Positions 43,143 to 60,598 of a stretch of DNA of 64,000 nt are shown here, in pieces. Within the stretch, counting starts at the first letter, position 1; each line of letters starts with the position of its first letter. A model generated the notes under the pieces. That model was not told the DNA's origin and did no database searches. It saw nothing but the letters and a program-made list of their open reading frames with translations. This DNA is from Phocaeicola dorei (lineage in GTDB: Bacteria > Bacteroidota > Bacteroidia > Bacteroidales > Bacteroidaceae). Position numbers and translations under genes: made by a program. Location of the stretch: contig NZ_CP046176.1 of the NCBI RefSeq assembly GCF_013009555.1, positions 1,271,501 through 1,335,500 of the forward strand, given 5' to 3'.

Positions 43143-43149
43143 AGATAGG

Positions 43150-43512: not shown

Positions 43513-43533
43513 TTAATCACTAAAAACAAAAAA

Positions 43534-44082
43534 ATGATGAGAACAAAATTTTTTTTAATGGTGTTGGCAGCCATTGTTATGGGAAGTCAGGTAACACTTT
43601 TTGCCCAAGAAAAGAAAGAAACTAAATCTGAAAGAAGGCAGTTTAATAAAGAACAGATGCTGGAAATACAGTGCAATCAAATTATAAAAGGATTGGCATT
43701 GGATGACGCAACGGCTGCTAAATTTATTCCGGTGTATAAACAATACATGGAAGAAATGCAGGCTACTCGTCATATGGGAGTTTGTCGAAATGTTGCAAAT
43801 AGAACGGCCGCCGATAAACAGATCCCCAAACCGGTCCCTACAGATGCTGAAGTGGAGCAGGCTATTAAGGCACGTTTCGCGCAGAGTAGAAAGATACTGG
43901 ATATTCGTGAGGAATATTATAATGAGTTTCGGAAATTTCTTTCTCCTAAACAAATTCAGAAAATGTATAATATGGAGAAACACAATGGTGATAAATTTCG
44001 TAAAGAGATGAAAAAAAGACAAGGAATGAAAAAGCAGCATGATGGAAGAAGACATATGTCACAGGGCGATGTGAAGAAGTAA
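43534..44082 (+). CDS. Periplasmic Spy/CpxP-like protein
   Basis: The protein is 182 residues with signal peptide MMRTKFFLMVLAAIVMGSQV-TLFA (or from the next ATG at 43537). The mature part is all-helical and strongly charged: RRQFNKEQMLEIQCNQIIKG, LDDATAAKFIPVYKQYMEEM, and a C-terminal tail rich in Lys, Arg, His and Met (KKRQGMKKQHDGRRHMSQGD). This is like Spy/CpxP-type proteins in which LTxxQ-like helices sense misfolding or metal. Its place after the sigma and anti-sigma genes suggests that it reports envelope state; this is inferred from context. Confidence 0.65.
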   Translation: MMRTKFFLMVLAAIVMGSQVTLFAQEKKETKSERRQFNKEQMLEIQCNQIIKGLALDDATAAKFIPVYKQYMEEMQATRHMGVCRNVANRTAADKQIPKPVPTDAEVEQAIKARFAQSRKILDIREEYYNEFRKFLSPKQIQKMYNMEKHNGDKFRKEMKKRQGMKKQHDGRRHMSQGDVKK

Positions 44083-45882: not shown

Positions 45883-45909
45883 TCATTATAGTACGGTAAC
45901 TGATGTTTA

Positions 45910-45951
45910 AAAACGTACAGGGTGTCCGATTTCGGACACCCTGTACGTTTT
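45910..45951 (+). promoter_or_regulatory. Enhancer-like site 1 (GTGTCCGATTTCGGACAC) within a 19-bp palindrome
   Basis: GTGTCCGATTTCGGACAC occupies 45922-45939. The palindrome extends to 19 bp per arm with a 4-base centre and ends in TTTTGTTTG. It therefore could serve both as terminator of the glucosaminidase gene and as a binding site for the NtrC-family regulator. The same 18 bases occur again at 59007-59024. Its centre is 54.5 bp upstream of the -24 GG of the next promoter. Confidence 0.7.
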
Positions 45952-45982
45952 GTTTGTTATTGATTATCAATAAGTTGCTTTC

Positions 45983-45999
45983 TTGGCACGGATGTTGTT
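45983..45999 (+). promoter_or_regulatory. Sigma-54-type promoter 1 (adaptor gene)
   Basis: TTGGCACGGATGTTGTT matches the RpoN consensus TTGGCACGN4TTGCW except at the C of the -12 GC. The -24 GG is at 45985-45986, and the ATG of the adaptor gene follows at 46044. Confidence 0.75.
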
Positions 46000-46043
46000 T
46001 ATTCTTTAGTACAAAAATGACAATAATAAAATTACAATAAGTT

Positions 46044-47291
46044 ATGGACAGAGAAATCCCTAAAGAAGTGCGTGATAAGGAACGCAAAAAGAAGTTCATT
46101 AAATATGGTGCAATAGGTGTGGCGGCAGTGGTATGTATAGCTGTATTGATTTCGTTTATGCGAAGTAGCGTCAATAAGAAAGATTTGGTGTTTTCAGAAG
46201 TAGACAATGGAACTATTGAAGTAAGTGTCAGTGCTTCCGGTAAGGTTGTCCCGGCTTTTGAAGAGATTATCAATTCACCTATTAATACTCGTATCGTGGA
46301 AGTTTACCGTAAGGGAGGAGACAGCGTGGATGTAGGTACGCCGATTTTGAAACTTGATTTGCAGAGTACGGAAACCGAATACAAGAAATTGCTGGATGAA
46401 GAACAGATGAAACGTTATCAGTTAGAGCAGTTGAAAGTGAATAATAATACGTATCTGAGCGATTTATCAATGCAAGTGAAAATTTCTGCCATGAAATTGA
46501 ACCGTATGGAGGTAGAACTTCGCAACGAACGTTATTTGGATAGCTTGGGTTCTGGAACAACGGACAAGGTTCGTCAGGCTGAATTGAACTTCAATACAGG
46601 AAAACTGGAATTGGAACAGCTCCGTCAGCAATACGCAAATGAATCGAAAGTAAAAGAGGCTGATTTGAAAGTGAAGGAATTGGAATTCAATATTTTCTCA
46701 AAGAGTCTTGCTGAAATGAAACGTACATTGGATGACGCTCAAATTCGTTCACCGCGTAAAGCGATTCTTACCTATATTAATAATCAGGTAGGTGCGCAGG
46801 TGGCGGAAGGTAGTCAAGTAGCTATCATTTCTGATTTGAGCCACTTTAAAGTGGAAGGTGAAATAGCTGATACATACGGTGACCGTGTGGCAGCAGGTGG
46901 ACGTGCCATAGTCAAGATTGGCAATGAGAAACTGGAAGGAACGGTAAGTAGTGTGACACCGTTGAGTAAGAATGGGGTGATTTCGTTCATTGTACAACTG
47001 AATGAAGATAATAACAAGCGATTGCGTTCCGGCTTGAAGACGGATGTATATGTAATGAATGCCGTGAAAGAAGGGGTTTTAAGATTGGCGAATGCTTCTT
47101 ATTATGTCGGTCGCGGTGAATATGAATTATTTGTTCAGGATAGTAAGGATGAAGTAGTGAAGCGTAAAGTTCAATTGGGTGACAGTAATTTTGAATATGT
47201 GGAAGTCATATCGGGATTGAAACCGGGTGACAAGGTGGTTGTCAGCGATATGAGCAGTTACAAAAACAAGAATAAGTTGAAGTTGAAATAA
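46044..47291 (+). CDS. HlyD/RND-type periplasmic adaptor of the export system
   Basis: The protein is 415 residues. A single N-terminal transmembrane helix (YGAIGVAAVVCIAVLISFMR, residues 16-35) anchors a periplasmic part. Lipoyl-like half motifs flank a long coiled coil: SASGKVVPAFEEIINSPINT near residue 55 and AQIRSPRKAILTYINNQVGA near residue 233, with Leu/Glu/Lys-rich helices between them. A beta-barrel domain and a membrane-proximal domain (GLKPGDKVVVSDMSSY) follow. Adaptors of this type bridge an inner-membrane permease and a TolC channel. It is the first gene of the export cluster and is preceded by its own enhancer-like site and sigma-54-type promoter. Confidence 0.88.
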   Translation: MDREIPKEVRDKERKKKFIKYGAIGVAAVVCIAVLISFMRSSVNKKDLVFSEVDNGTIEVSVSASGKVVPAFEEIINSPINTRIVEVYRKGGDSVDVGTPILKLDLQSTETEYKKLLDEEQMKRYQLEQLKVNNNTYLSDLSMQVKISAMKLNRMEVELRNERYLDSLGSGTTDKVRQAELNFNTGKLELEQLRQQYANESKVKEADLKVKELEFNIFSKSLAEMKRTLDDAQIRSPRKAILTYINNQVGAQVAEGSQVAIISDLSHFKVEGEIADTYGDRVAAGGRAIVKIGNEKLEGTVSSVTPLSKNGVISFIVQLNEDNNKRLRSGLKTDVYVMNAVKEGVLRLANASYYVGRGEYELFVQDSKDEVVKRKVQLGDSNFEYVEVISGLKPGDKVVVSDMSSYKNKNKLKLK

Positions 47292-47352
47292 GAAGCAGCT
47301 ATGACATAAACAACAAGATAAAACTCTCTCTTAATTAATACATTGATTGTTA

Positions 47353-47394
47353 CGGGAAATGAAGTGTCTTTTCTTCCTTTTCACTCATTTCCCG
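47353..47394 (+). terminator. Hairpin after the adaptor gene
   Basis: CGGGAAATGA (47353-47362) and TCATTTCCCG (47385-47394) are perfect inverted repeats with a T-rich 22-base loop. There is only a weak T-run after the stem. It separates the adaptor gene from the next sigma-54-type promoter. The rest of the 390-base gap to 47683 holds no ORF on the coding strand. Confidence 0.5.
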
Positions 47395-47557
47395 AACATA
47401 ATTTAATTTGTTCTTAGGCTATGTCGTTTTTTTGATTGTTTACTTTTTTATATTATTCATAATGCTTGTTGGCATTCTTATTCCGGTATACAGCATCAGT
47501 TGTATTAGTCCGGTAGATGTGTTGTGGGATGAATACGACTGACAAAAACGATCATAC

Positions 47558-47573
47558 TGTCCGTTATCGGACA
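47558..47573 (+). promoter_or_regulatory. Enhancer-like site 2 (TGTCCG-TTAT-CGGACA)
   Basis: A perfect 6-bp inverted repeat around TTAT, with the same half-sites as sites 1 and 4. Its centre (47565.5) is 53.5 bp upstream of the GG of the promoter-like sequence at 47617-47633. Confidence 0.65.
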
Positions 47574-47616
47574 ATATATTAAATAATAATCTGTTGAAAA
47601 TTAAATGTTTATTGCT

Positions 47617-47633
47617 TTGGTATATCTTTTGAT
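47617..47633 (+). promoter_or_regulatory. Weak sigma-54-type promoter 2 (ATPase gene)
   Basis: TTGGTATATCTTTTGAT keeps the -24 GG and the TTG before the -12 position, but has GA in place of GC. Its distance from the enhancer-like site is almost the same as at the other three promoters, which supports it despite the poor match. The ATPase ATG follows at 47683. Confidence 0.5.
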
Positions 47634-47682
47634 TCATAAAAATAAAAAGTGTATAAGATTAACAATTTAAATAAGAAAAATT

Positions 47683-48354
47683 ATGGCAATGATTAAATTA
47701 ACCGGTATCAATAAAATCTACCGTACCAATGAGATTGAAACATTAGCACTGGAAAATGTAAATTTGGATGTGATTAAAGGCGAATTTGTTAGTATTATGG
47801 GGCCTTCCGGTTGCGGTAAGTCTACCTTGTTGAATATTATGGGGTTATTGGATGCTCCCAGCAGTGGAAAGATTGAAATAAACGGTACTTCTGTAGAAAG
47901 TATGAAAGATAAAGAACTGGCTGCTTTTCGTAATAAGACTTTGGGATTTGTGTTCCAGTCATTCCACCTGATTAATTCGCTGAATGTGATTGACAATGTA
48001 GAATTGCCTTTGCTCTATAGAAAGATGGCTGCCAAGGAGCGTACCCGTTTGGCAAAAGAAGTGTTGGAGCGTGTTGGTTTAAGTCATCGTATGCGCCACA
48101 TGCCCACACAGCTTTCCGGTGGTCAGTGTCAGCGTGTGGCGATAGCCCGTGCTATTGTGGGCAATCCCGAAATTATCCTTGCCGATGAGCCTACCGGAAA
48201 TTTGGACTCAAAAATGGGTGCTGAAGTAATGGAGTTGTTGCATAAATTGAATAAAGAAGATGGACGTACCATTGTGATGGTAACCCATAATGAAGAACAA
48301 GCCAAACAGACTTCAAGAACTATCCGTTTCTTTGATGGCCGTCAGGTGCAATAA
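47683..48354 (+). CDS. ABC transporter ATPase, LolD/MacB type
   Basis: The protein is 223 residues, a single nucleotide-binding domain. Walker A is GPSGCGKST near residue 42, the signature is LSGGQCQRVAIARAI near residue 146, Walker B is ILADEPTGNLD near residue 166, and the His switch is in MVTHNEEQA near residue 202. It belongs to the LolD/FtsE/MacB group that powers FtsX-like permeases. It is the only ATPase gene for the eight permeases that follow, so it is expected to serve all four permease pairs. The first permease begins 50 bases later. Confidence 0.92.
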   Translation: MAMIKLTGINKIYRTNEIETLALENVNLDVIKGEFVSIMGPSGCGKSTLLNIMGLLDAPSSGKIEINGTSVESMKDKELAAFRNKTLGFVFQSFHLINSLNVIDNVELPLLYRKMAAKERTRLAKEVLERVGLSHRMRHMPTQLSGGQCQRVAIARAIVGNPEIILADEPTGNLDSKMGAEVMELLHKLNKEDGRTIVMVTHNEEQAKQTSRTIRFFDGRQVQ

Positions 48355-48404
48355 CTGGAGGCTACTTCATTTTTTCTACGGACCATTAATGAAAAGGTAC
48401 TATA

Positions 48405-49682
48405 ATGATAAAAAAAACAATAGGACAAGTAATTTATCAATTGCGTAACCAACCGTTACTAAGTGCAATTACTATATTGGGAACTGCCCTCGCTATTGCT
48501 TTGATAATGGTTATTCTAATTGTCTATCAAGCGAAAACGGCGGACTATGCTCCTGAAGTAAATCGTTCACGCTCGCTTTACGTCAAATGGGAGCGTACGG
48601 TATATGACAAGAAAGAACCTAACAGCGCAGGTCATTCCCGACCTTCATTGTGGATGGCTAAAGAAGTCTTTTATCCGTTGAAAACTCCCGAAGCTGTATG
48701 CGTTACTTATGAAGCCGGTGAAGTATTAGTCAGTACTCCAGGAGCTGATGAAGAGGTCAATACACCGTTGTTACTGACAGATGCTGATTTTTGGAAGATA
48801 TACCAATTTCATTACTTGTCGGGAAAACCTTTTACCCAGGCTGACTTTCAGTCGGGAATAAAGAAAGCTGTTATTGTTGAAAGTGTGGCGAGGCGTCTTT
48901 ATGGAGATGTGGACGCTGCTATTGGGAAACCTGTACAGATTAATTTTACTGATTATACTGTTTGTGGTGTAGTAGAGAATGTAAATCGTTTTTGTGAGTT
49001 TGCATGGAGTGAGGTTTATGCACCTTATTCTTCGAATGCGATAGCCAATAAGGTGGAAGCAGGAGAAACTCAGGGAAATCATATCATTACTATCTTGGCG
49101 CATAGTTCAGATGATTTTGAGAAAATCCGTAATGAGGTGGCCCGTGGAGTGGCACAGATTAATACGACACTGGGTGAGAGAGAATTGCAACTGATGGGGC
49201 AACCGGATAACTTCCGTACTCAGTTGAATCGTAAATTTGCCAACTCGTATGAAAATCTGGATGCGGCATATTGGAAATATGGCATTATGATTATTGTTAT
49301 TTTATTGGTTCCCGCCATTAATCTAAGCGGATTGACACATACCCGTATGCGTCGTCGGCTGGAAGAATTAGGTATTCGTAAATCTTTTGGCGCTACACAG
49401 GGAGAGTTGGTGTGGCAGGTTTTGAACGAGAACTTTGTATTGACATTAATCGGTGGGATGCTGGGACTTGGACTTTCTTATCTGTGTCTGTGGCTGATGA
49501 GTGATTGGTTGCTTCAGACTGCTTGGGGAGCAACAGCTACCATGAATGTTTCTATGGTCAGTCCTGTTGTATTTTTTGTGGCGCTTTGTTTTTGTCTGGT
49601 GCTTAATTTGCTTTCGGCATACATTCCTGCCTGGCGTGTTGCCCATACTCCGATTGTCGATTCGTTAAATCAAAAACTCTAA
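48405..49682 (+). CDS. FtsX/MacB-type permease A1
   Basis: The protein is 425 residues. One transmembrane helix near residues 18-40 (ITILGTALAIALIMVILIVY) is followed by a periplasmic MacB-type domain of about 240 residues. The C-terminal FtsX domain has three helices (about 290-312, 345-367, 388-410). The cytoplasmic loop after helix 2 carries LLVPAINLSGLTHTRMRRRL then EELGIRKSFGAT, the coupling-loop pattern shared by all A-class permeases of this cluster. It is paired with B1, which starts 4 bases after its stop codon. The pair should form one heterodimeric transporter with the ATPase. Confidence 0.88.
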   Translation: MIKKTIGQVIYQLRNQPLLSAITILGTALAIALIMVILIVYQAKTADYAPEVNRSRSLYVKWERTVYDKKEPNSAGHSRPSLWMAKEVFYPLKTPEAVCVTYEAGEVLVSTPGADEEVNTPLLLTDADFWKIYQFHYLSGKPFTQADFQSGIKKAVIVESVARRLYGDVDAAIGKPVQINFTDYTVCGVVENVNRFCEFAWSEVYAPYSSNAIANKVEAGETQGNHIITILAHSSDDFEKIRNEVARGVAQINTTLGERELQLMGQPDNFRTQLNRKFANSYENLDAAYWKYGIMIIVILLVPAINLSGLTHTRMRRRLEELGIRKSFGATQGELVWQVLNENFVLTLIGGMLGLGLSYLCLWLMSDWLLQTAWGATATMNVSMVSPVVFFVALCFCLVLNLLSAYIPAWRVAHTPIVDSLNQKL

Positions 49683-49686
49683 GGCT

Positions 49687-50985
49687 ATGCTGATTCATTT
49701 ATTAATTATTATAAAGAATAATCTTCGTGCCAATCTGTTGCTGATGGCTGGAATGTTCGTCATTGCTACTTCACTGTGGTATGCTGTGGATTATGTGTAT
49801 GCTGTGGTAGTGAACCAACAGAAATCATTAGGGTTTGATTGGGAGCATGTATATTATGTACAAGCGGCCGTCTTACCCAATGAAAGCGTGGAGTGTGACA
49901 CAGCAAGTCGGTCTGATGATGAAGTGACAGCTGAATATTTGGAATTTTATAATCGGCTGCAACATCATCCGGCAGTAGAAAGTGCATGTTATACTTTGAT
50001 GCATTTCCATTATATATGGAAAAACGGTAGTGGAACCATGTCTTATGATACATTGAAGACCAGTGCGATGTATCGGGAAGTCACTCCTTCTTATTTTACC
50101 GTGTTTCGTGTCAGAGGGGCTGATGAATGTTCGCCTGAAGAGTTGTCCCGGCGGGCATCACATACCAATGATTTTGTGGTGACGGAAAATACAGCTTGTC
50201 GGCTGTTGAATCCGGACATAAATAATATGACTGTAAAAGGAGTGGAGCTAGCCGGTCGGTTTATTCATAGTGGGGTTTCCATGCGCGAGGATGAACCAGA
50301 TTCGGTGCGTGTGGCCGCCGTATGCGAGAATCAGAAATATAATGAATATTCCAATTGGAGTAAAGCCGTTTATCGCATTGTACAGTTGGGACAGGGAGAT
50401 TTTAAGATAAGCTATGGCAGTATTCCTTATCATGATATATTTATTCGTGTGAAGGCAGATGCCGACCGTCCTGGCTTTGTGGAATCATTCCGGAAAGAGA
50501 TGAAGAAACAGCTGCGTGTGGGTAATCTGTATCTGGCGGATATGCGTCCTATGAGTTATTACCGGAATGAACATCTGGCTGATTATCGTAGCGATCTTTA
50601 TACTTATTTGGCCATTGCTGGATTCTTTTTAGCTAATGCGTTTTTGGCCATATTGGGTACTTTCTGGTTCCGTACGCAGCAGCGTCGTGAAGAACTGGCC
50701 GTCCGTCTGGTTGCTGGGGCTACGCCGCACAGTCTTCAGACTCTTTTAATGGGAGAAGGCTTTCTACTGATAACCATCGCTTATATTCCTGCTTTGGTTG
50801 TAGCTTATAATTTAGGTATTTCTGATTTAGTAGAGACATGGCCTGTAGAATGGAGTTTCACACGTTTCCTGATAGGAGGGCTTGTTACTTTTCTGTTACT
50901 TTGGGCTATTGCCGCTATCAGCATTTGGTTTCCGGCACGGCAGGCCATGAGTATCCAGCCAGCTGAGGCATTGCATGGTGAGTAA
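49687..50985 (+). CDS. FtsX/MacB-type permease B1
   Basis: The protein is 432 residues with the same topology as A1 but of the B class. It begins with KNNLRANLLLMAGMFVIATS and a first helix ending WYAVDYVYA. A periplasmic domain of about 260 residues follows, then the loop GTFWFRTQQRREELAVRLVA and the ending ARQAMSIQPAEALHGE. B-class members share the GTFWFRT and PAEALH motifs, which A-class members lack. It is the last gene of the ATPase-A1-B1 unit; a 263-base gap follows that holds the third enhancer-like site and promoter and a weak GAGATACA/TGTATCTC hairpin (51029-51073). Confidence 0.88.
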   Translation: MLIHLLIIIKNNLRANLLLMAGMFVIATSLWYAVDYVYAVVVNQQKSLGFDWEHVYYVQAAVLPNESVECDTASRSDDEVTAEYLEFYNRLQHHPAVESACYTLMHFHYIWKNGSGTMSYDTLKTSAMYREVTPSYFTVFRVRGADECSPEELSRRASHTNDFVVTENTACRLLNPDINNMTVKGVELAGRFIHSGVSMREDEPDSVRVAAVCENQKYNEYSNWSKAVYRIVQLGQGDFKISYGSIPYHDIFIRVKADADRPGFVESFRKEMKKQLRVGNLYLADMRPMSYYRNEHLADYRSDLYTYLAIAGFFLANAFLAILGTFWFRTQQRREELAVRLVAGATPHSLQTLLMGEGFLLITIAYIPALVVAYNLGISDLVETWPVEWSFTRFLIGGLVTFLLLWAIAAISIWFPARQAMSIQPAEALHGE

Positions 50986-51124
50986 ATCAGATATTCATTT
51001 TATTAAAAGATGGAATTAATGAAAAACGGAGATACATTTGGGATCTATTTGGAAATATAGAACATTGTATCTCTGCTTTAATTTATATATCAGGAAGTGA
51101 AATCGTGTGCGAAAATGAAGTTGG

Positions 51125-51140
51125 TGTTCATTTTCGGACA
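51125..51140 (+). promoter_or_regulatory. Enhancer-like site 3 (TGTTCA-TTTT-CGGACA)
   Basis: The right half-site CGGACA is exact; the left differs from TGTCCG at two bases. Its centre (51132.5) is 54.5 bp upstream of the -24 GG, as at sites 1 and 4. It is also part of another inverted repeat, CGAAAATGAA...TTCATTTTCG (about 51110-51136). Confidence 0.6.
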
Positions 51141-51185
51141 GTGTATAATAAAGATAATATGTTTATATTCAGTTTTTTGTGTCTT

Positions 51186-51201
51186 TGGCATGACTTTGGC
51201 T
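51186..51201 (+). promoter_or_regulatory. Sigma-54-type promoter 3 (permeases A2-B4)
   Basis: TGGCATGACTTTGGCT has the -24 GG (51187-51188) and -12 GC (51199-51200) exactly ten bases apart. It precedes the run of six permease genes that starts at 51249. Confidence 0.65.
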
Positions 51202-51248
51202 AGTATAGATATAAAGTGTATAAGAAAATAATAAAATAGAATTCGAAA

Positions 51249-52541
51249 ATGATAAAACAGTATTACAAGCAAGCTTTGGCACAACTACGCCAACATCCGC
51301 TTATCAGTATTATCGGTATTGTGGGGACTGCGCTGAGTATTTTCCTTATTATGTTGGTAGTGATGATGCAACAAGTAAAGGTCGCTCCTTTTTCTCCCGA
51401 GTCCAATCGTAACCGTTTTTTACATGTACATTATATGAGTATCAGTCATAAAGATTGGGGAAATGGGACAAGTAATGGTCCGATGAGTGTACAGACTGCA
51501 CGTGAAGTATACAAATCGTTGAAGACTCCTGAGGCTGTTACTGTTTATTGTTGCATGACGGTGTCCACTCCTGTTTCCCTACCTGGTGCGCCTGCGATAG
51601 GAGCTGATGTGCGTGAGACAGATGATACATTTTTTCATGTGTTCGATTTTCAGTTTACAGATGGAAAGCCGTATGATGAAGCTACTTTTACAGCTGGGCG
51701 CCCTGTAGCTGTTATAACAGAGAGCATATCACGTGCCTTGTTTGGTTCTATTCAGTCTGTAGGTAAAGAATTTCTGCTGAGTCATGCTCCTTATCGTGTA
51801 GTAGGAGTAGTGAAAGATGTTTCAACTCTTGCCGATATGGCTTACGGGCAAGTATGGATTCCTTTCACTTCGACCAACCTGTCTAATGACACATGGAGTG
51901 ATAACCACATGGGAATGATGAGTGTAACTCTGTTGGCGCATGACCGTGAGGATTTTGATGAGATTCGTGCTGAGGCTAAGCGCCGTATGAATGAGTATAA
52001 TTCAATACTTGCTGATCAAGGGTATACATTGATAGATCGCAACCGTCCTTATGACCAGGAAACCCAATCGATTTCTTTTGCTGCCAATTTGGAACCGGAT
52101 TTAAAAGCGGCTCGTCGTGAGCGTGTCATTATCTTTATTATTCTATTATTGGTTCCTGCCATAAATTTGAGCAGCATGACGCAAAGCCGTTTGCGTCAGC
52201 GTGTAGCCGAGATAGGTGTGCGTCGTGCATTTGGAAGTACCTGCATAGAGATGGTGGGGCAGATTGTGATGGAAAATCTCGTAATCACTTTGTTGGCAGG
52301 GGCTATCGGATTGCTCATTAGTATATTATTCGCTTATTGGGGCACTGATATATTGTTTGCACAACCTTATAGTGTTACTCTGAATGCGCCTACTGTTGAT
52401 TCCAGAATTTTATTGCAACCATCTACTTTCCTCTATGCATTGTTGTTCTGTTTTGTATTGAATTTGCTTAGTAGCGGTATTCCCGCATGGCGGGCATCGC
52501 GTACTAACATAGTCAATGCTTTGGGAGGAAAGATACATTAA
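51249..52541 (+). CDS. FtsX/MacB-type permease A2
   Basis: The protein is 430 residues of the A class. It opens with MIKQYYKQALAQLRQHPLIS, first helix near residues 18-40 (IIGIVGTALSIFLIMLVVMM), a periplasmic domain to about residue 290, and the coupling loop LLVPAINLSSMTQSRLRQRV then AEIGVRRAFGST. Three C-terminal helices follow. It is the first of six permease genes in this transcription unit, expressed from sigma-54-type promoter 3. Its partner is B2 36 bases downstream. Confidence 0.88.
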   Translation: MIKQYYKQALAQLRQHPLISIIGIVGTALSIFLIMLVVMMQQVKVAPFSPESNRNRFLHVHYMSISHKDWGNGTSNGPMSVQTAREVYKSLKTPEAVTVYCCMTVSTPVSLPGAPAIGADVRETDDTFFHVFDFQFTDGKPYDEATFTAGRPVAVITESISRALFGSIQSVGKEFLLSHAPYRVVGVVKDVSTLADMAYGQVWIPFTSTNLSNDTWSDNHMGMMSVTLLAHDREDFDEIRAEAKRRMNEYNSILADQGYTLIDRNRPYDQETQSISFAANLEPDLKAARRERVIIFIILLLVPAINLSSMTQSRLRQRVAEIGVRRAFGSTCIEMVGQIVMENLVITLLAGAIGLLISILFAYWGTDILFAQPYSVTLNAPTVDSRILLQPSTFLYALLFCFVLNLLSSGIPAWRASRTNIVNALGGKIH

Positions 52542-52577
52542 TAGATGAAAAATTAAGAATTTAAAAGAAGAGTTAGA

Positions 52578-53828
52578 ATGAATAAGAAACTATTGACACA
52601 GATAAAGAATGAGTGGCGTTCCAATCTTTGGCTTGTTACCGAATTGTTGTTGGTGAGTGTTGTTATGTGGTATATTGTCGATTATATGTATGTTAAGGCA
52701 GCTGTTTACTATGAGCCACGTGGTTTTGATATCTCCCATTGTTATTTGATACAAATGGGACGCCTTACTGATAAAAGTCCTGATTTTATTCCTAATCAGA
52801 CAAAAGAGCAGCAGCGGGAAGATGTGAAAGGACTTGCCGAGCGTCTTAAATATCGTCCGGATATAGAGGCGGTTGGTTTTGGTCAGAATTCTTATCCTTA
52901 TAATGGGAGTAACAGCGGTACGGAGGTTAGATATGACACACTTCAGTCGCCGGGATGGACTATTCGACGTTTAGTAAGTCCTGATTTTGTCCGGGTTTTC
53001 CAGTATCATGGTACTCGTGGGGAAACTCCTGAACAATTGGCGGAGTTGCTTAGCCATCCCAAGAATTTTTTGGCTTCCGATAATTTATACAAGAAACGTT
53101 ACGGAAGAGATTTGACTCCATTGGTAGGAAAACAGTTTTATTTGTTTGGAGATACGACGGAAACCTATACGCTGGGAGCATCGTTGGAGGTAGTCCGGTA
53201 TTCAGATTATGAGCAGGCATGGAACAGCTACAGTATGGTGAAACTTTTGCCGGAGAATTGGTATGATGTGGGACTTGAATTGTGTGTACGGGTAAAAGAA
53301 GATCAGGATAAAGATTTTATAACCCGTTTGAAAGCTGATAGTGAGAAGCTATATCGGGTGGGGAATGTGTTTATAGCCGAAGTGCGTTCGTTTGATGATA
53401 TCCGTCGTAACTATCAACAGTCACAAACCAATTCCATGCGCAGCTATATTTTGGGTATGGTTTTTTTATTGTTGAATATTTTTTTAGGATTGCTGGGCAC
53501 GTTCTGGTTTCGTACTCAGCAACGACGTGGTGAGATTGCTTTGATGAAATCTTTGGGAGGAACAGACCACAGTGTCTTTGTACGCCAGTTGGTGGAAGGA
53601 TTACTGCTATTGGTTATAGCCACTATTCCGGCTGTTTTTATCAATTGGAATCTGGCAAATAGTGAATTGAATGCTTGGATGAATGGTACTACTATTGAAG
53701 GTGGACGCTTCATAATAACAGTTCTTATCTCCTTTATTTTGATTGCATTGATGATTGTAGTAGGCATTTGGATTCCTGCACGTAAGGCTATGAAAGTTCA
53801 GCCGGCGGAAGCATTGCATAATGAGTAA
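52578..53828 (+). CDS. FtsX/MacB-type permease B2
   Basis: The protein is 416 residues of the B class: MNKKLLTQIKNEWRSNLWLV, first helix ending VDYMYVKAAV, periplasmic domain, then GTFWFRTQQRRGEIALMKSL and the end ARKAMKVQPAEALHNE. A long spacer region in its periplasmic part (residues 60-270) differs strongly from B1, so the pairs may bind different substrates or partners. It follows A2 and is 40 bases upstream of A3. Confidence 0.87.
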   Translation: MNKKLLTQIKNEWRSNLWLVTELLLVSVVMWYIVDYMYVKAAVYYEPRGFDISHCYLIQMGRLTDKSPDFIPNQTKEQQREDVKGLAERLKYRPDIEAVGFGQNSYPYNGSNSGTEVRYDTLQSPGWTIRRLVSPDFVRVFQYHGTRGETPEQLAELLSHPKNFLASDNLYKKRYGRDLTPLVGKQFYLFGDTTETYTLGASLEVVRYSDYEQAWNSYSMVKLLPENWYDVGLELCVRVKEDQDKDFITRLKADSEKLYRVGNVFIAEVRSFDDIRRNYQQSQTNSMRSYILGMVFLLLNIFLGLLGTFWFRTQQRRGEIALMKSLGGTDHSVFVRQLVEGLLLLVIATIPAVFINWNLANSELNAWMNGTTIEGGRFIITVLISFILIALMIVVGIWIPARKAMKVQPAEALHNE

Positions 53829-53868
53829 TTTCTTTTTTTGTTAAAAGATTTTAGAGCATAGCACAAAC

Positions 53869-55149
53869 ATGATAAAACTATATTTCAAACAGGCTTTTTT
53901 CCAACTCCGTGAGAATAGGCTCATCAGCTTGGTCTCTATTATAGGAACGGCATTGGCTATTTGTATGATCATGGTCATCGTTTTGGTGTTGGAAGTGCGC
54001 ATTACGGATTGTGTGCCTGAGGTGAACCGTTCACGTTCTCTTTATATGAAAGCGATGTCTATTCATCAGAAAGGAGATACTAGTGATAATTCATCAAACG
54101 GCTGTATGTCACTTACGGTGGCTAAAGAGTGTTTTAAGGCGCTTACTGTTCCTGAGACGGTAACTATAGTGTCTACAGGAGGCAGGATGCGTATTTCTGT
54201 ACCTGCGGGAAAAACAATGACAGTGGATAATCTTGAAACTGACGATACTTTTTGGAAAGTGTTCTCTTTTGATTTTATTGCCGGAAAGCCGTTTACGGCT
54301 GCCGATAGTGAAAGCGGACTTCCTAAGGTTGTAATTAGCGCTTCTGTGGCCCGGAATTTATTTGGTACGGTAGAAGCAGTGGGGCGTACAGTCCAACTTA
54401 ACTTGGCCGATTATACGATAGTGGGTGTTGTGAAAGATGTATCCAAACTGGCTGTTTCTTCGTATGCGCAGATTTGGATACCTTTCAATTCAACTGAAAT
54501 AGCCAGGAAGTGTTGGTATGACAATGCGATGGGAACTTTTCGTGTGGTCATTCTGGCACATTCGGAGAAAGATTTTCCTGCTATCAGAGAAGAGGTGGAA
54601 CGTCTGCGTCAGAAATTTAATGACGGATTGCAGGATTCTGAAATCTTTTATCGTGGACAACCCGATGATCGTTTCTCTTTTATCTTTCGTCACTGGGGAA
54701 GAGAGTTACAGGCGAAGGAAGCTTATTTGTACTACCTGCTGGTGATTGTCATTTTATTGTTGGTACCGGCTATAAATCTTAGTAGCATGACTTTGTCCCG
54801 TATGCGGAAGCGCATGTCGGAAATAGGAGTGAGGAAGGCATTTGGTGCTACTGCCAATGTCTTGTTGAGGCAAGTGTTTTATGAAAACTTATTATTGACG
54901 CTCATAGCCGGAGCAGTAGGAATGCTTTTCAGTTATGCATGTACTTTTTTATTGAATGATTTCTTATTTTCCAATAGCGAGAACCGTGCCCAAATAGGAG
55001 AAACCAGTCTTTCGGCAGATATGTTGTTCAGTCCCTGGATATTCTTGGCCGCATTCATTTTCTGCCTGCTCTTGAATTTGCTGTCAGCGTGCATTCCTGC
55101 CTGGAGGGCATCGCGCATGAATATTACGGACGCTTTAAACCAACGTTAG
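53869..55149 (+). CDS. FtsX/MacB-type permease A3
   Basis: The protein is 426 residues of the A class: MIKLYFKQAFFQLRENRLIS, first helix near residues 18-40, periplasmic domain, then LLVPAINLSSMTLSRMRKRM and SEIGVRKAFGAT, and three C-terminal helices. It is closer to A1 and A2 than to A4, judging by the motif around PEVNRSRSLYMKAM. The partner B3 starts 3 bases after its stop codon. Confidence 0.88.
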   Translation: MIKLYFKQAFFQLRENRLISLVSIIGTALAICMIMVIVLVLEVRITDCVPEVNRSRSLYMKAMSIHQKGDTSDNSSNGCMSLTVAKECFKALTVPETVTIVSTGGRMRISVPAGKTMTVDNLETDDTFWKVFSFDFIAGKPFTAADSESGLPKVVISASVARNLFGTVEAVGRTVQLNLADYTIVGVVKDVSKLAVSSYAQIWIPFNSTEIARKCWYDNAMGTFRVVILAHSEKDFPAIREEVERLRQKFNDGLQDSEIFYRGQPDDRFSFIFRHWGRELQAKEAYLYYLLVIVILLLVPAINLSSMTLSRMRKRMSEIGVRKAFGATANVLLRQVFYENLLLTLIAGAVGMLFSYACTFLLNDFLFSNSENRAQIGETSLSADMLFSPWIFLAAFIFCLLLNLLSACIPAWRASRMNITDALNQR

Positions 55150-55152
55150 ATC

Positions 55153-56424
55153 ATGAACAGGAATTTATTGAAACAGATATGGAACGAGCGCCGCAGCAAT
55201 GCGTTTCTGTGGATGGAACTTTTTGTGGTGTTTGTCATATTATGGTATATTGTGGATGTGGTATATGTCACATTGAGCATCTATAATTTGCCGATGGGCT
55301 TTGATATAGAAAATACGTATGTTCTTCGTTTTGAGCGGATGACTTCGAAGGCGGCTGCTTATCAGCCTGGCCGTACTATGAAAGAAGATGTTGCCGATTT
55401 GCATGAAATTGTAAACAGGCTTGCGCATCGTCCGGATGTGGAAGCAGTCAGCCTCTCGCAAAACTGTATACCTTATAATGACGGTGCAAACAGTTTTTCA
55501 TTTTATCTGGATACAGTCCCGGTACGTAGTTTGAAACGATGGATAACTCCGGAGTATTTTAATGTATTCCGTTATCGCAATATAGACGGTTCGGATAGTG
55601 AAAGCCTTGCTGAGGCACTGACACCGTCCGGCATGGTCTTATCTGTGAATATTGCCGATGTTTATCAGGATGCACCTTGGCATGGTAAGGAACTTTTAGG
55701 GCGTAGGGTGCCTGTTTGGCGGAATGAGCCGGAGGCGGAGCACCTTTCTATAGCTGCTCTTACCGAGCCGGTCCGTTATGATCATTTTACAGCTCCGGAT
55801 GATTACGGCTCCCGTTATGCTGCTGTGTACCTGACAGATGAGGTAATGGAATCCTTGGGCGAAACGGTTTATATAGAAGTTTGCCTACGTGTTCGTGAGG
55901 GACAGAATGATGGATTCATAGACCGTTTGATAGTGGATGCCGACCGTCAATATCAGGTGGGCAATCTATATCTTTTGGATATAACTCCTTTGAGTGATGT
56001 ACGCACTGCTTATGAAACGGATTCGGTGAATGAGTTGAATACGCAATTTTGTATCATATTTTTCTTATTGCTGAATATCTTTCTAGGCATTATCGGAACT
56101 TTCTGGTTCCGGACACAGCATCGGCGTGTCGAAATTGCGTTGCGTATAGCTTTAGGTTCTACCCGTTGGGGAATCTGCGGTCGTCTGATGGGGGAAGGAG
56201 TCTTTTTATTGTTGGTATCTGCTATTCCTGCATTGGTCGTAGCGTGGAATTTGGGATATGCCGAACTGGTGGAAGTTACACGTATGCCTTTTACGGAAGG
56301 TCGTTTTGCGATTACAATTCTGGGCACTTTCATTCTGATTGCTGGAATGATTGTCATTGGAATAGGATACCCTGCCCGTCGTGCCATGAGTATCGAACCG
56401 GCTGAGGCATTACATGAAGAATAA
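55153..56424 (+). CDS. FtsX/MacB-type permease B3
   Basis: The protein is 423 residues of the B class: MNRNLLKQIWNERRSNAFLW, first helix ending VDVVYVTLSI, periplasmic domain, then GTFWFRTQHRRVEIALRIAL and the end ARRAMSIEPAEALHEE. It follows A3 by 3 bases, showing tight coupling of the pair, and is followed by A4 after 22 bases. Confidence 0.88.
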   Translation: MNRNLLKQIWNERRSNAFLWMELFVVFVILWYIVDVVYVTLSIYNLPMGFDIENTYVLRFERMTSKAAAYQPGRTMKEDVADLHEIVNRLAHRPDVEAVSLSQNCIPYNDGANSFSFYLDTVPVRSLKRWITPEYFNVFRYRNIDGSDSESLAEALTPSGMVLSVNIADVYQDAPWHGKELLGRRVPVWRNEPEAEHLSIAALTEPVRYDHFTAPDDYGSRYAAVYLTDEVMESLGETVYIEVCLRVREGQNDGFIDRLIVDADRQYQVGNLYLLDITPLSDVRTAYETDSVNELNTQFCIIFFLLLNIFLGIIGTFWFRTQHRRVEIALRIALGSTRWGICGRLMGEGVFLLLVSAIPALVVAWNLGYAELVEVTRMPFTEGRFAITILGTFILIAGMIVIGIGYPARRAMSIEPAEALHEE

Positions 56425-56446
56425 ATAAAATGAAGAGATAAAACGA

Positions 56447-57703
56447 ATGAAACAGCTATTATTACAAGCATTTAATCTGATACGGCAGAATCCTTTTTAT
56501 GCTACAATCAGTATTATAGGAACAGCTGTCACTATCGCTTTTGTTATGGTGGTAGTGATGATTTATGACTTCCGTACAATGGATATGGCTCCGGAAAGTG
56601 ATCGGAGCGATATGATGTATACAGGTTCGGGAATGACCTATCGTAAGCAGGATCATACCAACCAGAACAGCGGTATGGGACGCAAGGCTTTTGAAGCATT
56701 GTTTTCAGAGCTCCCTGGTGTAAAAGAGGTTACTTGGTATCGTGGCGTTTCCAAGACCCCTTGTAACTTGTCCGCTTCGAATGAGATATTCAACTATTTT
56801 GTGCGGCCTGTGGCTGATAACTGGTTTAAGTTCTTTGATTATGAATTTATAGCGGGACGTCCTTTCACACAAGAGGAGTATGATGCCCGTCGGTGTGTCA
56901 GTGTGGTAACCGAGCGTATGGCCTTGCAGCTTTTCGGCACGACGGATGTGGTAGGAAAAGAATATCAAAGTAATTTTTTTCCGACTAAAGTGGTAGGCGT
57001 GGTGAAAGATGTCAATGCTATTTTCCAGACAGCATACGCTGATGCTTTTGTTCCTTTCTCATTGGAAAATGAAGACTATTATGCTACTTGGACAGGGGGC
57101 TTGGGAGGAATCCGTCTGGGATTGCTCAAACTGCTGCCGGACACTCGTCCTGCAGAGGTACGGACTGAAGTACAGCATCGGCAGGATCGTTTGAATAGTT
57201 CAACGGCAGAATATGCTTTCGAGATGAACGAACTCTATACTCATACGGAATATACCTTTTTTCGTGGAAAAGATATTAGTGCACCGTTGGTTTACAGTAT
57301 GTTATTGATGGTCTTGCTGATTGTTCCTGCTATTAATATCTCAGGTATGACCAATGCCCGAATGCAGGAGCGTGTGACAGAGATTGCAGTTCGCAAGGCG
57401 TATGGTGCATCACGTATTTCCATTATGGTGAGGTTGTTTTTAGAGAATCTGTTTACGGTCTTTTTGGGTGGAATTTTAGGATATCTGTTTTCGTGTGTGT
57501 TGGTTTGGCTGGGACGTGTATGGTTGTTTGGTAGCGGCGAGGTAGAATTATCAGATATCAGTCTGGATGGAGGTTTGTTGTTGCATCCTGCTTTATTTGT
57601 GTTGGTTTTCGGCGTATGTGTTGTTTTTAATTTATTGTCGGTATTGATTCCGGTATGGATGGTCACACATCGTAATATTGCGACTACCATCAAAGGAGAA
57701 TAG
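56447..57703 (+). CDS. FtsX/MacB-type permease A4
   Basis: The protein is 418 residues of the A class: MKQLLLQAFNLIRQNPFYAT, first helix near residues 18-40 (TISIIGTAVTIAFVMVVVMI), periplasmic domain, then LLIVPAINISGMTNARMQER and VTEIAVRKAYGAS. It is the most diverged A-class copy (IVPAINISGM, KAYGAS). Three C-terminal helices follow. B4 begins 12 bases later. Confidence 0.87.
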   Translation: MKQLLLQAFNLIRQNPFYATISIIGTAVTIAFVMVVVMIYDFRTMDMAPESDRSDMMYTGSGMTYRKQDHTNQNSGMGRKAFEALFSELPGVKEVTWYRGVSKTPCNLSASNEIFNYFVRPVADNWFKFFDYEFIAGRPFTQEEYDARRCVSVVTERMALQLFGTTDVVGKEYQSNFFPTKVVGVVKDVNAIFQTAYADAFVPFSLENEDYYATWTGGLGGIRLGLLKLLPDTRPAEVRTEVQHRQDRLNSSTAEYAFEMNELYTHTEYTFFRGKDISAPLVYSMLLMVLLIVPAINISGMTNARMQERVTEIAVRKAYGASRISIMVRLFLENLFTVFLGGILGYLFSCVLVWLGRVWLFGSGEVELSDISLDGGLLLHPALFVLVFGVCVVFNLLSVLIPVWMVTHRNIATTIKGE

Positions 57704-57715
57704 GAGGAAAGAAAA

Positions 57716-58960
57716 ATGATAAAGAGTTTATTCAGACAAATGTGGAACCAGAGGCACGCCAATGTATGGGTGTGGGTTGAATTGATTGTTGTTCTTATCT
57801 TGCTATGGTACAGCATCGATCTGGTTTATAATTATGAGGCTGCTGCCCGTCAGTCTAAAGGATATGACACGGAGAATGTTTTTGATATTCAATTGAATAT
57901 TAAGCCGGCTTTGCAAAATGATTCTGTATTAATGAGTCATTCTGCTGAATATTTGGAACAAATCTATCATTTAATCCAACAATATCAAGGGGTGGAGGAA
58001 GCTTGTTTTTATTATGGGACAATACCTTATACGGGAAATAATATGTATGAGGGATATGCTCCGCATTCGGATTCGACCCATGTGGTAGGCTGTTTCATCC
58101 GTTATGTCAGCCCTACTTATTTCAAGGTATTTCGTTTGCAGCCATTATCAGGCTCATTTGAGGCGGAGCGTTGGGACAAGAATGAATACCCCATGCCGGT
58201 GTTGATGAGTGAAACGTTAAGTGATTCCTTGTTTAGCGGACGCAATGGAGTAGGGGAGACTTGTTTCAATCCTTATTTTCTGAATAGTGTGCAACCGGAA
58301 ACTAATTATAAGGTAATGGCGGTACTTCCTGCTCATAAGACCGATGAGTACGAGCGTTACGAACCTTTTATTTATCTTCCCAGTCCGCCGCTGACTCATT
58401 GGCATCACATTGCGGTGCGTGTGGCTTCCAATTCCATACCGGGATTTACCGAACATTTTATGCAGGATATGCAAGGGAAATTATCTATCGGCCCTTATTA
58501 CTTATACGATATAAATTCGTATGGCGATATGAAGGAAGCTTTCGATATAGAGCAAGGAACGGTGAATTATCTGAATACTACCTATGCCGTTATCCTTTTC
58601 TTTGTTTTCAATATATTTTTAGGGATGCTGGGTACTTTCTGGTTTCGGACTCGTAAAAACCGAAGTGAGATAGCTTTGCGTATGGCACTAGGTTGCAGTA
58701 GGATGAATGTATTTGGTTATTATGTACTTGAGGGCATCCTTCTCTTGGTTTCGGCTGCCATTCCCGCTGTTTTTGTTTGTGCGAATATGCAGATGGCGGA
58801 TCTTACTGTGCATACATTAATGGAACCTGCTTGGGGACGTTTTTTGCTTTGTTTTGTGTCGGCCATGCTGTTGTTGGGGATAATAATTTTGCTCGGCATT
58901 TATTTCCCCGCCCGGAAAGCGATGGGGATTGAGCCGGCAGACGCGTTGCATAATGAATAA
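57716..58960 (+). CDS. FtsX/MacB-type permease B4
   Basis: The protein is 414 residues of the B class: MIKSLFRQMWNQRHANVWVW, first helix ending IDLVYNYEAA, periplasmic domain, then GTFWFRTRKNRSEIALRMAL and the end ARKAMGIEPADALHNE. The QRR of the B loop is replaced by RKNRSE, so it is the most diverged B copy, matching A4. It ends the permease run, and the fourth enhancer-like site follows within 47 bases of its stop codon. Confidence 0.88.
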   Translation: MIKSLFRQMWNQRHANVWVWVELIVVLILLWYSIDLVYNYEAAARQSKGYDTENVFDIQLNIKPALQNDSVLMSHSAEYLEQIYHLIQQYQGVEEACFYYGTIPYTGNNMYEGYAPHSDSTHVVGCFIRYVSPTYFKVFRLQPLSGSFEAERWDKNEYPMPVLMSETLSDSLFSGRNGVGETCFNPYFLNSVQPETNYKVMAVLPAHKTDEYERYEPFIYLPSPPLTHWHHIAVRVASNSIPGFTEHFMQDMQGKLSIGPYYLYDINSYGDMKEAFDIEQGTVNYLNTTYAVILFFVFNIFLGMLGTFWFRTRKNRSEIALRMALGCSRMNVFGYYVLEGILLLVSAAIPAVFVCANMQMADLTVHTLMEPAWGRFLLCFVSAMLLLGIIILLGIYFPARKAMGIEPADALHNE

Positions 58961-59000
58961 TGTTATTTCATTGTCACATGATCAGCAGTGTTCGTATATG

Positions 59001-59030
59001 AATGGAGTGTCCGATTTCGGACACTCCATT
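59001..59030 (+). promoter_or_regulatory. Enhancer-like site 4 (GTGTCCGATTTCGGACAC) within a 13-bp palindrome
   Basis: GTGTCCGATTTCGGACAC at 59007-59024 is identical to site 1 and is extended to a 13-bp stem (AATGGA...TCCATT) followed by TTTTTG. It may also terminate the permease transcript. Its centre is 54.5 bp upstream of the -24 GG of the TolC promoter. Confidence 0.7.
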
Positions 59031-59067
59031 TTTGTCGTAAGGTGTTATAAAACAGTGAAATAGTTTT

Positions 59068-59084
59068 TTGGCATACCATTTGCC
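59068..59084 (+). promoter_or_regulatory. Sigma-54-type promoter 4 (TolC-type gene)
   Basis: TTGGCATACCATTTGCC has the -24 GG (59070-59071), ten bases, then the -12 GC (59082-59083) preceded by TT, an exact match to the invariant RpoN bases. The ATG follows at 59114. Confidence 0.75.
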
Positions 59085-59113: not shown

Positions 59114-60598
59114 ATGAAAAAACAAGTAATATCTCTATTTTTAGCCTTTGGCATATCGTTGGTTGCCGGAGCGCAGCCACAAGAAAAGCGACGTGCCATC
59201 ACTTTGGAGGAAGCCATTACTATTGCCCGTGTGCAAAGTGTAGATGCGGCCGTAGCTTTAAACGAGCTGAAAACCGCTTATTGGGAATATCGTACTTTCC
59301 GTGCGGATTTGCTTCCGGAAATGAATTTTGAAGCCACTATTCCCAGCTATAATAAGAAGTATAATTCTTATCAGCAGGATAACGGTGCTTATACATTTGT
59401 ACGTAATAATTATATGGAAATGAATGGTGAAGTTTCTATCGATCAGAATATTTGGTTGACCGGTGGTAAACTCTCATTGAATACCTCTCTTGATTTCTTG
59501 AAACAACTGGATGGAGATAAATCAAAACGATATATGTCTGTTCCTGTGGCATTGACTTTGGAACAACCTATTTTCGGAGTGAATACAATTAAATGGAACC
59601 GCCGCATCGAACCGGTGAGATACGCTGAAGCTAAAGCCGCATTTCTTACTGCAACCGAAGAGGTAACCATGACTACTATCAACTATTTTTTCAATTTGTT
59701 GTTGGCTAAGGAAAATGTAGGCATCGCCCGACAGAATCTGAAGAATGCAGATAAACTGTATGAAGTGGCTAAGGCAAAGCGTAGTATGGGGCAGATCAGT
59801 GAAAATGATTTGTTGCAATTGGAACTGAATGTATTGAATGCCCGTTCTACGTTGACTGAAAATGAAAGCAACTTGAAAAGTAATATGTTCAAACTCCGTT
59901 CATTTCTAGCATTAGGAGAAGATGAGGAATTGGAACCGGTTGTTCCCGAGACGATTCCGACTGTATTGCTGAACTATCCGGATGTTTTGGACAAAGCACT
60001 TGCCAATAATTCATTTGCGCACAATATTCGTCGCCGCCAGTTGGAAGCAGATTTTGAAGTGGCTAAGGCGAAAGGTAATTTACGTGAAATCAAGCTCTAT
60101 GCACAGGTAGGTTTTACAGGAACAGACAATGAATTTAATAGTGCATACCGCCGTTTGAAAGATAACCAGATTGTAGAAGTTGGTTTTAAAATTCCTATTC
60201 TTGACTGGGGAAAACGTCGTGGTCAGGTAAAGATTGCTCAAAGTAACCGCGATGTGACTGAAAGCAAGCTACGTCAGGAGACCATGAATTTCAATCAGAA
60301 TCTGTTTATCCTTGTAGAACAGTTCAATAACCAGCAGGCCCAGTTGCAGATAGCAGACGATGCGGACAAGATTGCCCAGAAACGTTACAGCACCAATGTG
60401 GAAACCTTCATGGTCGGTAAAATCTCGACATTGGATTTGAATGATTCCCAGTCAAAGAAAGATGAGGCTCGTCAGAAGCATATCAATGAGTTGTTCTATT
60501 ATTGGTACTATTATTACCAGTTGCGCAGCTTGACATTGTGGGATTTCAATACCAATACTAATATTGATGCCGATTTCGAGAAGATTATCAAACAATAG
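59114..60598 (+). CDS. TolC-type outer-membrane efflux protein
   Basis: The protein is 494 residues with signal peptide MKKQVISLFLAFGISLVAGA. It has two outer-membrane efflux repeats: ITLEEAITIARVQSVDAAVA near residue 30, with long Asn/Leu/Lys-rich helices (NLLLAKENVGIARQNLKNAD) and a second repeat with VGFKIPILDWGKRRGQVKIA near residue 357. It would form the periplasm-spanning exit duct. With the adaptor at 46044 and the ATPase/permeases it completes a tripartite exporter of the MacAB-TolC type. It is expressed from its own sigma-54-type promoter. Confidence 0.88.
   Translation: MKKQVISLFLAFGISLVAGAQPQEKRRAITLEEAITIARVQSVDAAVALNELKTAYWEYRTFRADLLPEMNFEATIPSYNKKYNSYQQDNGAYTFVRNNYMEMNGEVSIDQNIWLTGGKLSLNTSLDFLKQLDGDKSKRYMSVPVALTLEQPIFGVNTIKWNRRIEPVRYAEAKAAFLTATEEVTMTTINYFFNLLLAKENVGIARQNLKNADKLYEVAKAKRSMGQISENDLLQLELNVLNARSTLTENESNLKSNMFKLRSFLALGEDEELEPVVPETIPTVLLNYPDVLDKALANNSFAHNIRRRQLEADFEVAKAKGNLREIKLYAQVGFTGTDNEFNSAYRRLKDNQIVEVGFKIPILDWGKRRGQVKIAQSNRDVTESKLRQETMNFNQNLFILVEQFNNQQAQLQIADDADKIAQKRYSTNVETFMVGKISTLDLNDSQSKKDEARQKHINELFYYWYYYYQLRSLTLWDFNTNTNIDADFEKIIKQ

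Follow-up and report, generated by a model that had tools for sequence, protein, structure and literature searches.

Four promoter modules of fixed geometry in an exporter cluster of Phocaeicola dorei point to a self-contained RpoN regulon

The subject of this report is an exporter cluster of Phocaeicola dorei and the four sigma-54-type promoter modules that are distributed over it. The cluster, ∼17 kb in length, lies in a 64,000-nucleotide stretch of a 5.63-Mb single-contig genome (G000:C1:1271501-1335500), which is referred to here as the window; positions are those of the window unless a contig or locus is named, and all features of the cluster lie on the forward (+) strand. The first gene encodes a HlyD-type periplasmic adaptor (46044..47291; Pfam HlyD_3) and is followed by that for an ABC ATPase of the LolD/MacB/DarD-like type (47683..48354; Pfam ABC_tran, with NCBIfam scores below the cut-offs). 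Next are eight permeases of the FtsX/MacB type, namely p1 and p2 (48405..50985; MacB_PCD/FtsX and FtsX, respectively) and six more, p3-p8 (51249..58960). The order is completed by a TolC-type outer membrane channel (59114..60598; Pfam OEP), an NtrC-type response regulator, the presumed activator (60684..62039), and a histidine kinase (62062..63357). The regulator contains a receiver domain (PF00072), a sigma-54 AAA+ domain (PF00158) with a GAFTDA loop, and a Fis-type helix-turn-helix (PF02954), and the kinase displays two transmembrane helices with a very short external loop, a HAMP domain and a PAS domain. All of the parts of a MacB-type tripartite exporter are present: adaptor, MacB_PCD/FtsX permease, ABC ATPase and TolC. 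No Rfam matches were found within the window.

An earlier note on this DNA, prepared from the letters alone, had reported four inverted repeats of the TGTCCG-N4-CGGACA type, each followed at a nearly constant distance by a GG-N10-GC-like sequence, with an NtrC-family regulator and a kinase at the cluster end. These observations hold. The repeats are present where they were placed, the first and the last are identical over 18 bases (GTGTCCGATTTCGGACAC), and the re-measured distances from the palindrome centre to the -24 GG are 54.5, 53.5, 54.5 and 54.5 bp. The genes behind sites 1-4 are those for the adaptor, the ATPase, the third permease and TolC, and the domains of the regulator and the kinase are identified by Pfam. 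The -24/-12 elements are of the TTGGCA-N6-TTTGC type; the label GG-N10-GC-like is a fair one in that the -12 dinucleotide is GT, GA, GC and GC in modules 1-4, with GG-N10-GC itself in modules 3 and 4. The full order of a module is a weaker distal palindrome positioned 19 bp upstream, a proximal palindrome, a box matching the IHF consensus, WATCARNNNNTTR, at a fixed position, and the -24/-12 element.

In module 1 the distal palindrome TGTTTAAAAACGTACA (45904..45919; offset -19, 2 mismatches) and the proximal activator palindrome TGTCCGATTTCGGACA (45923..45938) precede an IHF-consensus box without mismatches, TATCAATAAGTTG (45965..45977), and the -24/-12 element TTGGCACGGATGTTGT (45983..45998). 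Module 2 consists of the activator palindrome TGTCCGTTATCGGACA (47558..47573), an IHF-like box with one mismatch, AATTAAATGTTTA (47599..47611), and the -24/-12 element TTGGTATATCTTTTGA (47617..47632); its distal site is poor, with five mismatches, and is not counted. Module 3 contains a distal palindrome-like sequence, TGTGCGAAAATGAAGT (51106..51121; 3 mismatches), an imperfect activator palindrome with two differences, TGTTCATTTTCGGACA (51125..51140), a box with one mismatch, ATTCAGTTTTTTG (51167..51179), and the -24/-12 element TTGGCATGACTTTGGC (51185..51200). Module 4 is formed by the distal palindrome TGTTCGTATATGAATG (58989..59004; 2 mismatches), the same proximal palindrome as in module 1, TGTCCGATTTCGGACA (59008..59023), the weakest box of the four, AAACAGTGAAATA (59050..59062; 2 mismatches), and the -24/-12 element TTGGCATACCATTTGC (59068..59083). 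Module 1 is the clearest because of its mismatch counts (0, 1, 1 and 2 for the boxes and 2, 5, 3 and 2 for the distal sites of modules 1-4). A sigma-70-type promoter at these places was considered and rejected; the corresponding scan gave 36 matches versus 44.5 in shuffles, and the columns behind the -12 element are weakly conserved.

The elements, their spacing, their conservation and their rarity in the genome can be read directly from the DNA. Three copies of the exact palindrome, TGTCCGN4CGGACA, were found in a search of the 5.63-Mb genome, all of them within the exporter cluster, whereas the reversed pattern is absent. A relaxed pattern (palindrome-N28-46-TTGGYA, 19 gap lengths) applied to the whole genome yielded five places, four of which are the sites described above, with gaps of 43 or 44, and one of which is a stray with a gap of 46; the reversed control gave one. 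With the modules found here by such searches and the reversed-pattern controls near empty, the spacing is beyond chance, as had been claimed. A search of the same genome for the IHF box combined with the -24/-12 element, allowing two mismatches or fewer, returned 13 places versus seven in the reversed control. The four modules were included among the 13, and module 1 was the only perfect match.

Modules were also compared across relatives, the loci being collected through a protein search with the regulator and through a pattern search. Many loci from the protein searches share a genome. For the 51- and 129-module sets, near-identical modules were filtered out by identity, and a hand-made list served this purpose in the comparison of adaptor and terminator sites; close relatives remain in all of these. 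The larger set, reduced from 160 distinct modules to 129 non-redundant ones, comprises 114 modules of the long-spaced type A and 15 of the short-spaced type B. A box with one mismatch or fewer stands at offset -20 in 84 of the 114 long-spaced modules, 40 of them exact, and in 0-3 at the other offsets examined. In shuffled spacers a box at that offset was found 0.2 times on average, with a maximum of three in 1000 trials. The columns of the box, which were not used for selecting the 51 non-redundant modules, are occupied by W in 51/51, A in 51/51, R in 50/51, the two T positions in 35 and 45/51, and the last R in 48/51. The distal palindrome (three mismatches or fewer) lies at -19 in 57 of the 114, versus 0-7 at other offsets. 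The sequence found 5′ of the proximal palindrome in the 51 modules, CRAAANCGNACA, corresponds to the right part of a second palindrome.

The palindrome, the spacing and the -24/-12 element are conserved in the Bacteroidaceae and in Parabacteroides. The pattern palindrome-N38-48-TGGYA is present in 26 of 60 genus genomes and, in the reversed control, in none of 60. Two spacing scans were performed on orthologous clusters, one allowing only 51.5-56.5 bp and the other 36.5-69.5 bp from palindrome centre to GG. The latter was applied to the 2.6 kb before the regulator in 80 named loci that had been found by protein alone. It gave 50 candidates: 17 at 54.5, 10 at 53.5, 19 at 40.5, one at 41.5, and three at 62.5-63.5. 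Of these last three, one resembles a distal site and the other two resemble chance matches. No tolC-promoter candidate was found in these 2.6 kb in the other 30 loci, which were not inspected singly. In 30 named genomes, with gaps of 24-49 allowed, mainly gaps of 42-44 and 30 were observed, with seven reversed-control hits in all; these genomes were hand-picked, mostly with the module already known, and "30 of 30" is no frequency test.

The gap of 30 corresponds to a second architecture. The proximal palindrome of the tolC promoter is located 40.5-41.5 bp from the GG in 20 of the 80 loci, among them those of B. clarus, B. cellulosilyticus and B. fluxus. Among the 15 non-redundant short-spaced modules, 12 have a distal palindrome 23 bp further up, at ∼63.5 bp from the GG. 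The GC content of the spacer is 62% versus 30% in the long-spaced modules, and the IHF-like box is absent, with 0/15 having it anywhere versus 86/114 long-spaced modules. The other promoters of the same genomes retain the long form. The short form was seen only before tolC; the one candidate exception, a gap of 30 with TTGGTA in G088, was not inspected. On the regulator tree the short form falls among Bacteroides, one uncultured Mediterranea included, and no Phocaeicola or Parabacteroides row on that tree carries it, several Phocaeicola rows having had no candidate. Six long/short changes are counted on the tree, at least two of which are forced by well-supported branches.

The cluster regulator shares 99% identity with its counterpart in Phocaeicola vulgatus ATCC 8482, and the genome contains a single match to PF04552, rpoN, with an E value of 1.7e-48. 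Among 40 shared genus genomes, the strict pattern is present in 18 of the 23 in which a regulator was hit at 73% identity or more, versus 2 of the 17 others. At the level of the order, counting only gaps of 42-44 with TTGGCA, a range set after the hits had been seen, the module is present in 7 of 19 genomes with a close regulator versus 2 of 276 without. The match in G340 has no cluster protein around it and looks like a chance match, and in G036, an assembly rated 79% complete, the module precedes an adaptor 92% identical to that of the window. Recovery of the sigma-54 contact loop by regular expression succeeded for only 0 to 3 of the 13 activators of P. dorei, and that result was not used. 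The terminator scan lists no terminator-like site between tolC and the regulator, and for this reason module 4 probably drives the regulator and the kinase as well. Hydropathy indicates that the loop between the two transmembrane helices of the window kinase is too short for a sensor domain; judged by eye, this N-terminal pattern recurs in the related kinases among the 40 of 78 rows viewed, one of these rows being an unrelated protein. As a guess, the kinase may detect its signal inside the membrane, possibly by way of the permeases.

Two of the palindromes are embedded in hairpins. That of module 1 lies within a terminator-like hairpin with a 19-bp stem and a T-rich tail (45910..45951; -34.9 kcal/mol, z -9.3), which is located 27 nt behind the stop codon of a LysM/glucosaminidase gene and is listed by the terminator scan. 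The scan gave eight sites in 15.8 kb versus 11.6 in shuffles, and only the 19-pair stem at site 1 stands out. The proximal palindrome of module 4 is contained in a 14-bp stem in a T-run, 39 nt behind the p8 stop (59000..59031; -24.5 kcal/mol, z -6.0), and is not in the scan list. None of 200 shuffles was as stable as either hairpin. The palindromes of sites 2 and 3 have no long stem of their own. Separate hairpins lie upstream of them, unlisted by the scan, including that behind the adaptor gene (47353..47395; -20.2 kcal/mol, z -5.6). For the comparison with relatives, a site was called terminator-like when it had a stem of at least 10 pairs and at least six T in eight, near when it lay 60 nt or less behind a stop, and far when it lay more than 130 nt behind one. 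Near sites, related rows included, are terminator-like in 16/16 adaptor, 1/6 ATPase and 8/26 TolC modules, and far sites in 0/6, 0/1 and 1/15, respectively; three of the 25 adaptor modules and 11 TolC modules are at another or unknown distance. The gene upstream of the 16 near adaptor rows is that for the LysM/glucosaminidase in eight and an unassigned frame in eight. These rows are related: WIN, L081 and L082 are near-copies, and so are L160 and L161. Given the weak link inside the cluster, terminator overlap was rejected as a general rule; it is limited to the cluster border and some tolC sites. At the border, the sequence suggests that the preceding, foreign transcript would be ended where the activator binds.

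The module is also found away from the cluster in other genomes. In 37 stretches scanned around further sites, 30 module rows were found in 29. Ten precede genes for DUF3836 proteins, three DUF2807 (GIN-type) proteins, and ten homologues of cluster genes (six adaptors, two ATPases and two permeases); seven precede no clear gene. The DUF3836/DUF2807 rows (L264, L266-L277; Pfam) come from five Bacteroides genomes, namely B. cellulosilyticus, B. clarus, B. stercorirosoris, B. propionicigenes and one uncultured. To judge from their N-termini these proteins are probably secreted, and the exporter may handle them as cargo or work with them as partners. Their modules could instead be driven by a related activator. 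No paper on DUF3836 was found in the literature searched (titles and abstracts, partly best-ranked entries, with few subscription journals). In P. dorei itself, another promoter (L359, G000:C1:2915447-2915479, minus strand) precedes a MacB_PCD/FtsX permease gene. Its -24 GG lies 63 bp from a different palindrome, TGTCTAATAATTAGACA; an IHF-like match occupies the standard offset, and the promoter looks like the module of a second activator. In a matrix scan of the 20-kb surroundings of the other 12 activators, 13 promoter-like hits were obtained, versus two in mononucleotide shuffles; none of the 13 has the IHF-like box where the cluster modules have it.

Several neighbouring features were observed as well. 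Two -24/-12-like sites near other activators, L215:11148 (+) and L214:9281 (-), precede a gene for a small protein, matched below threshold by PepSY_like, and a TolC-type gene. In L215 the IHF consensus is matched exactly, at a position 12 bp upstream of the one that it takes in the cluster modules. At 42606-44082, upstream of the exporter cluster, lie an ECF-type sigma factor gene (Sigma70_r2, r4) and, behind it, two small frames to which Pfam has no match. A short open frame of 55 codons 3′ of the kinase (63596-63763) looks like the remnant of a longer gene.

Because a module of fixed geometry occurs four times and recurs in relatives, one activator very likely switches the whole machine. 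We consider it highly probable that the cluster is a self-contained RpoN regulon, in which all four promoters are switched by the adjacent NtrC-type regulator through RpoN, with IHF-like bending. The earlier note had likewise proposed one activator acting through RpoN. Conservation, the restriction of the motif, co-occurrence with the regulator and the single rpoN support that part of it; its account was incomplete in that the IHF-like box, the tandem sites, the terminator overlap and the second architecture had been missed. The scheme that we propose is a prediction with regard to the identity of the binding protein, phosphorylation, bending, termination, operon structure and the signal. The kinase would phosphorylate the regulator, dimers of which would bind the proximal palindrome and, more weakly, the distal one 19 bp upstream. 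An IHF-like protein would bend the DNA just upstream of the -24 element, and the bend would bring the AAA+ ring of the regulator onto RpoN-RNA polymerase at the -24/-12 element. The four promoters would fire together, leading to the adaptor, the ATPase with p1 and p2, p3-p8, and TolC. The tolC promoter, by presumed read-through, would also yield the regulator and the kinase and thereby provide positive feedback. At the left border the palindrome would serve in addition as the stem of the neighbouring gene's terminator, such that one short sequence both insulates and activates.

A number of observations weigh against this scheme. In module 4 the box deviates from the consensus at two positions, and the C at -12 is absent from modules 1 and 2. 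The canonical sigma-54 contact loop is GAFTGA; that of the regulator is GAFTDA in 75 of the 80 related loci and GAFTGA in three, and it was not found in two. The genome has 12 further strong matches to sigma-54 activators, and one of these could bind the modules instead. G032 and G358 carry the cluster and the module, and genome searches found no close regulator in either. In G032 the best genome-wide regulator hit has an E value of 5.4e-89, with none better than 38% identity and none in the neighbouring stretches; in G358 there is none at 1e-120 genome-wide or in the neighbouring stretches, and the cluster and module lie on a short contig. G032 (L344, L345) has the cluster, one module and, far away, a kinase fragment; a recent loss of the regulator is possible there. 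The relaxed pattern at the order level is near its control overall, with 36 hits versus 31, and is mostly noise outside gaps of 42-44. Finally, the counts and Fisher values are not corrected for the relatedness of the sequences. As for the bending protein, the best solved-structure match is HU for one protein of a tandem HU/IHF-family gene pair (G000:C1:2744034-2744613; loci L226 and L227) and an IHF construct for the other. In favour of an IHF-like protein, both score better against IHF-alpha than against HU models, below the cut-offs.

If the palindromes were mainly intrinsic terminators of the upstream genes, their spacing to the promoters would be incidental. Sites 1 and 4 do lie in strong, T-tailed hairpins just behind stop codons, the former being listed by the scan. 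Sites 2 and 3, which lack such a stem, nonetheless keep their core at an unchanged distance, and as a full account plain terminators were rejected on these grounds. In addition, the palindromes persist between different flanks in the short-spaced modules and in those found off the cluster in other species, and terminators do not predict a fixed distance to the -24 element or the IHF box. This explanation is very improbable. Binding of the sites by a different NtrC-type activator encoded in the genome, or by more than one, is also improbable, if somewhat less so. The 13 strong activator matches, the adjacent regulator being one, and the two genomes with the module and no close regulator found would fit such an arrangement. 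It is opposed by the restriction of the motif to the exporter cluster in its own genome and by its co-occurrence with the regulator. Moreover, the different palindrome at the L359 promoter is what would be expected if each activator had its own site.

The assignment of the WATCARNNNNTTR box carries more doubt than that of the activator. The box might be bound by HU or by another regulator, or be intrinsically bent DNA; we regard this as rather unlikely. The box often extends to the palindrome TTGATWATCAA, a possible dimer site, and none of the four HU/IHF-family proteins tested, from among the 12 PF00216 matches of the genome, passes an IHF cut-off. TTGATWATCAA alone, however, would not predict the downstream TTR, which is conserved at an exact N4 spacing, and the box is missing in every short-spaced module. 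An IHF-like protein acting at the box within an RpoN regulon controlled by the adjacent regulator is the reading that we prefer.

More tentatively, and with slightly more doubt than belief, we propose that orthologous tolC promoters gave up IHF bending, the distance to the GG shrinking from 54.5 to 40.5 bp and the two sites moving from 19 to 23 bp apart, and that the enhancer at the border doubles as an intrinsic terminator of the preceding foreign gene, its RNA hairpin insulating the enhancer and the bound activator possibly strengthening termination. If true, the two tolC geometries beside the retained bent promoters would constitute a natural experiment on enhancer looping.

IHF-assisted NtrC-type sigma-54 promoters such as nifH and glnHp2 are textbook examples in the Proteobacteria. 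The modules described here resemble them in having palindromic enhancers, an IHF box between the enhancer and the -24/-12 element, and an AAA+ response-regulator activator. They differ in belonging to another phylum, in their rigid spacing before four units of one machine, in the enhancer palindrome that is a terminator-like stem as well, and in the GAFTDA loop. Exporters of the MacAB-TolC and darobactin DarBCD types are built from an adaptor, a LolD/MacB-like ATPase, FtsX-type permeases and TolC, as is the cluster; unlike these, it has eight permeases to one ATPase, and it misses the NCBIfam equivalog cut-offs for DarD (260.5 of 375 bits) and DarC (75.4 of 450). MacB itself combines ATPase and permease in one protein, whereas these are separate proteins here. 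BceS-type intramembrane-sensing kinases have two transmembrane helices with a very short external loop and are paired with FtsX-type transporters. The cluster kinase shares the two helices and the very short loop and adjoins FtsX-type permeases, but it has HAMP and PAS domains and is paired with an NtrC-type regulator, and transporter sensing is not indicated here.

A 2025 survey (PMC12316311) predicted sigma-54 control of FtsX/COG0577 permeases in Bacteroidia from promoter matrices, and its examined passages describe this link to FtsX-type permeases as the first evidence of its kind. According to these passages, the same permease family and class is predicted to be sigma-54 dependent; an activator site, a spacing and a regulator assignment for such a cluster are not among them, and the term "IHF" does not occur in the main text. 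No work on such enhancers in Bacteroides, or on any enhancer doubling as a terminator, was found in the literature searched as described above. With IHF-assisted NtrC-type promoters already known, the module arrangement would represent a variant of these, and it is well supported by comparison.

The cluster offers a testable RpoN regulon with a defined predicted activator site in gut Bacteroidales, a group whose RpoN enhancers are little treated in the literature searched. With orthologous promoters present in two architectures, enhancer geometry and dependence on IHF could be studied side by side in a single regulon. The DUF3836/DUF2807 proteins, which appear to be co-regulated with the many-permease exporter, hint at what it might handle.

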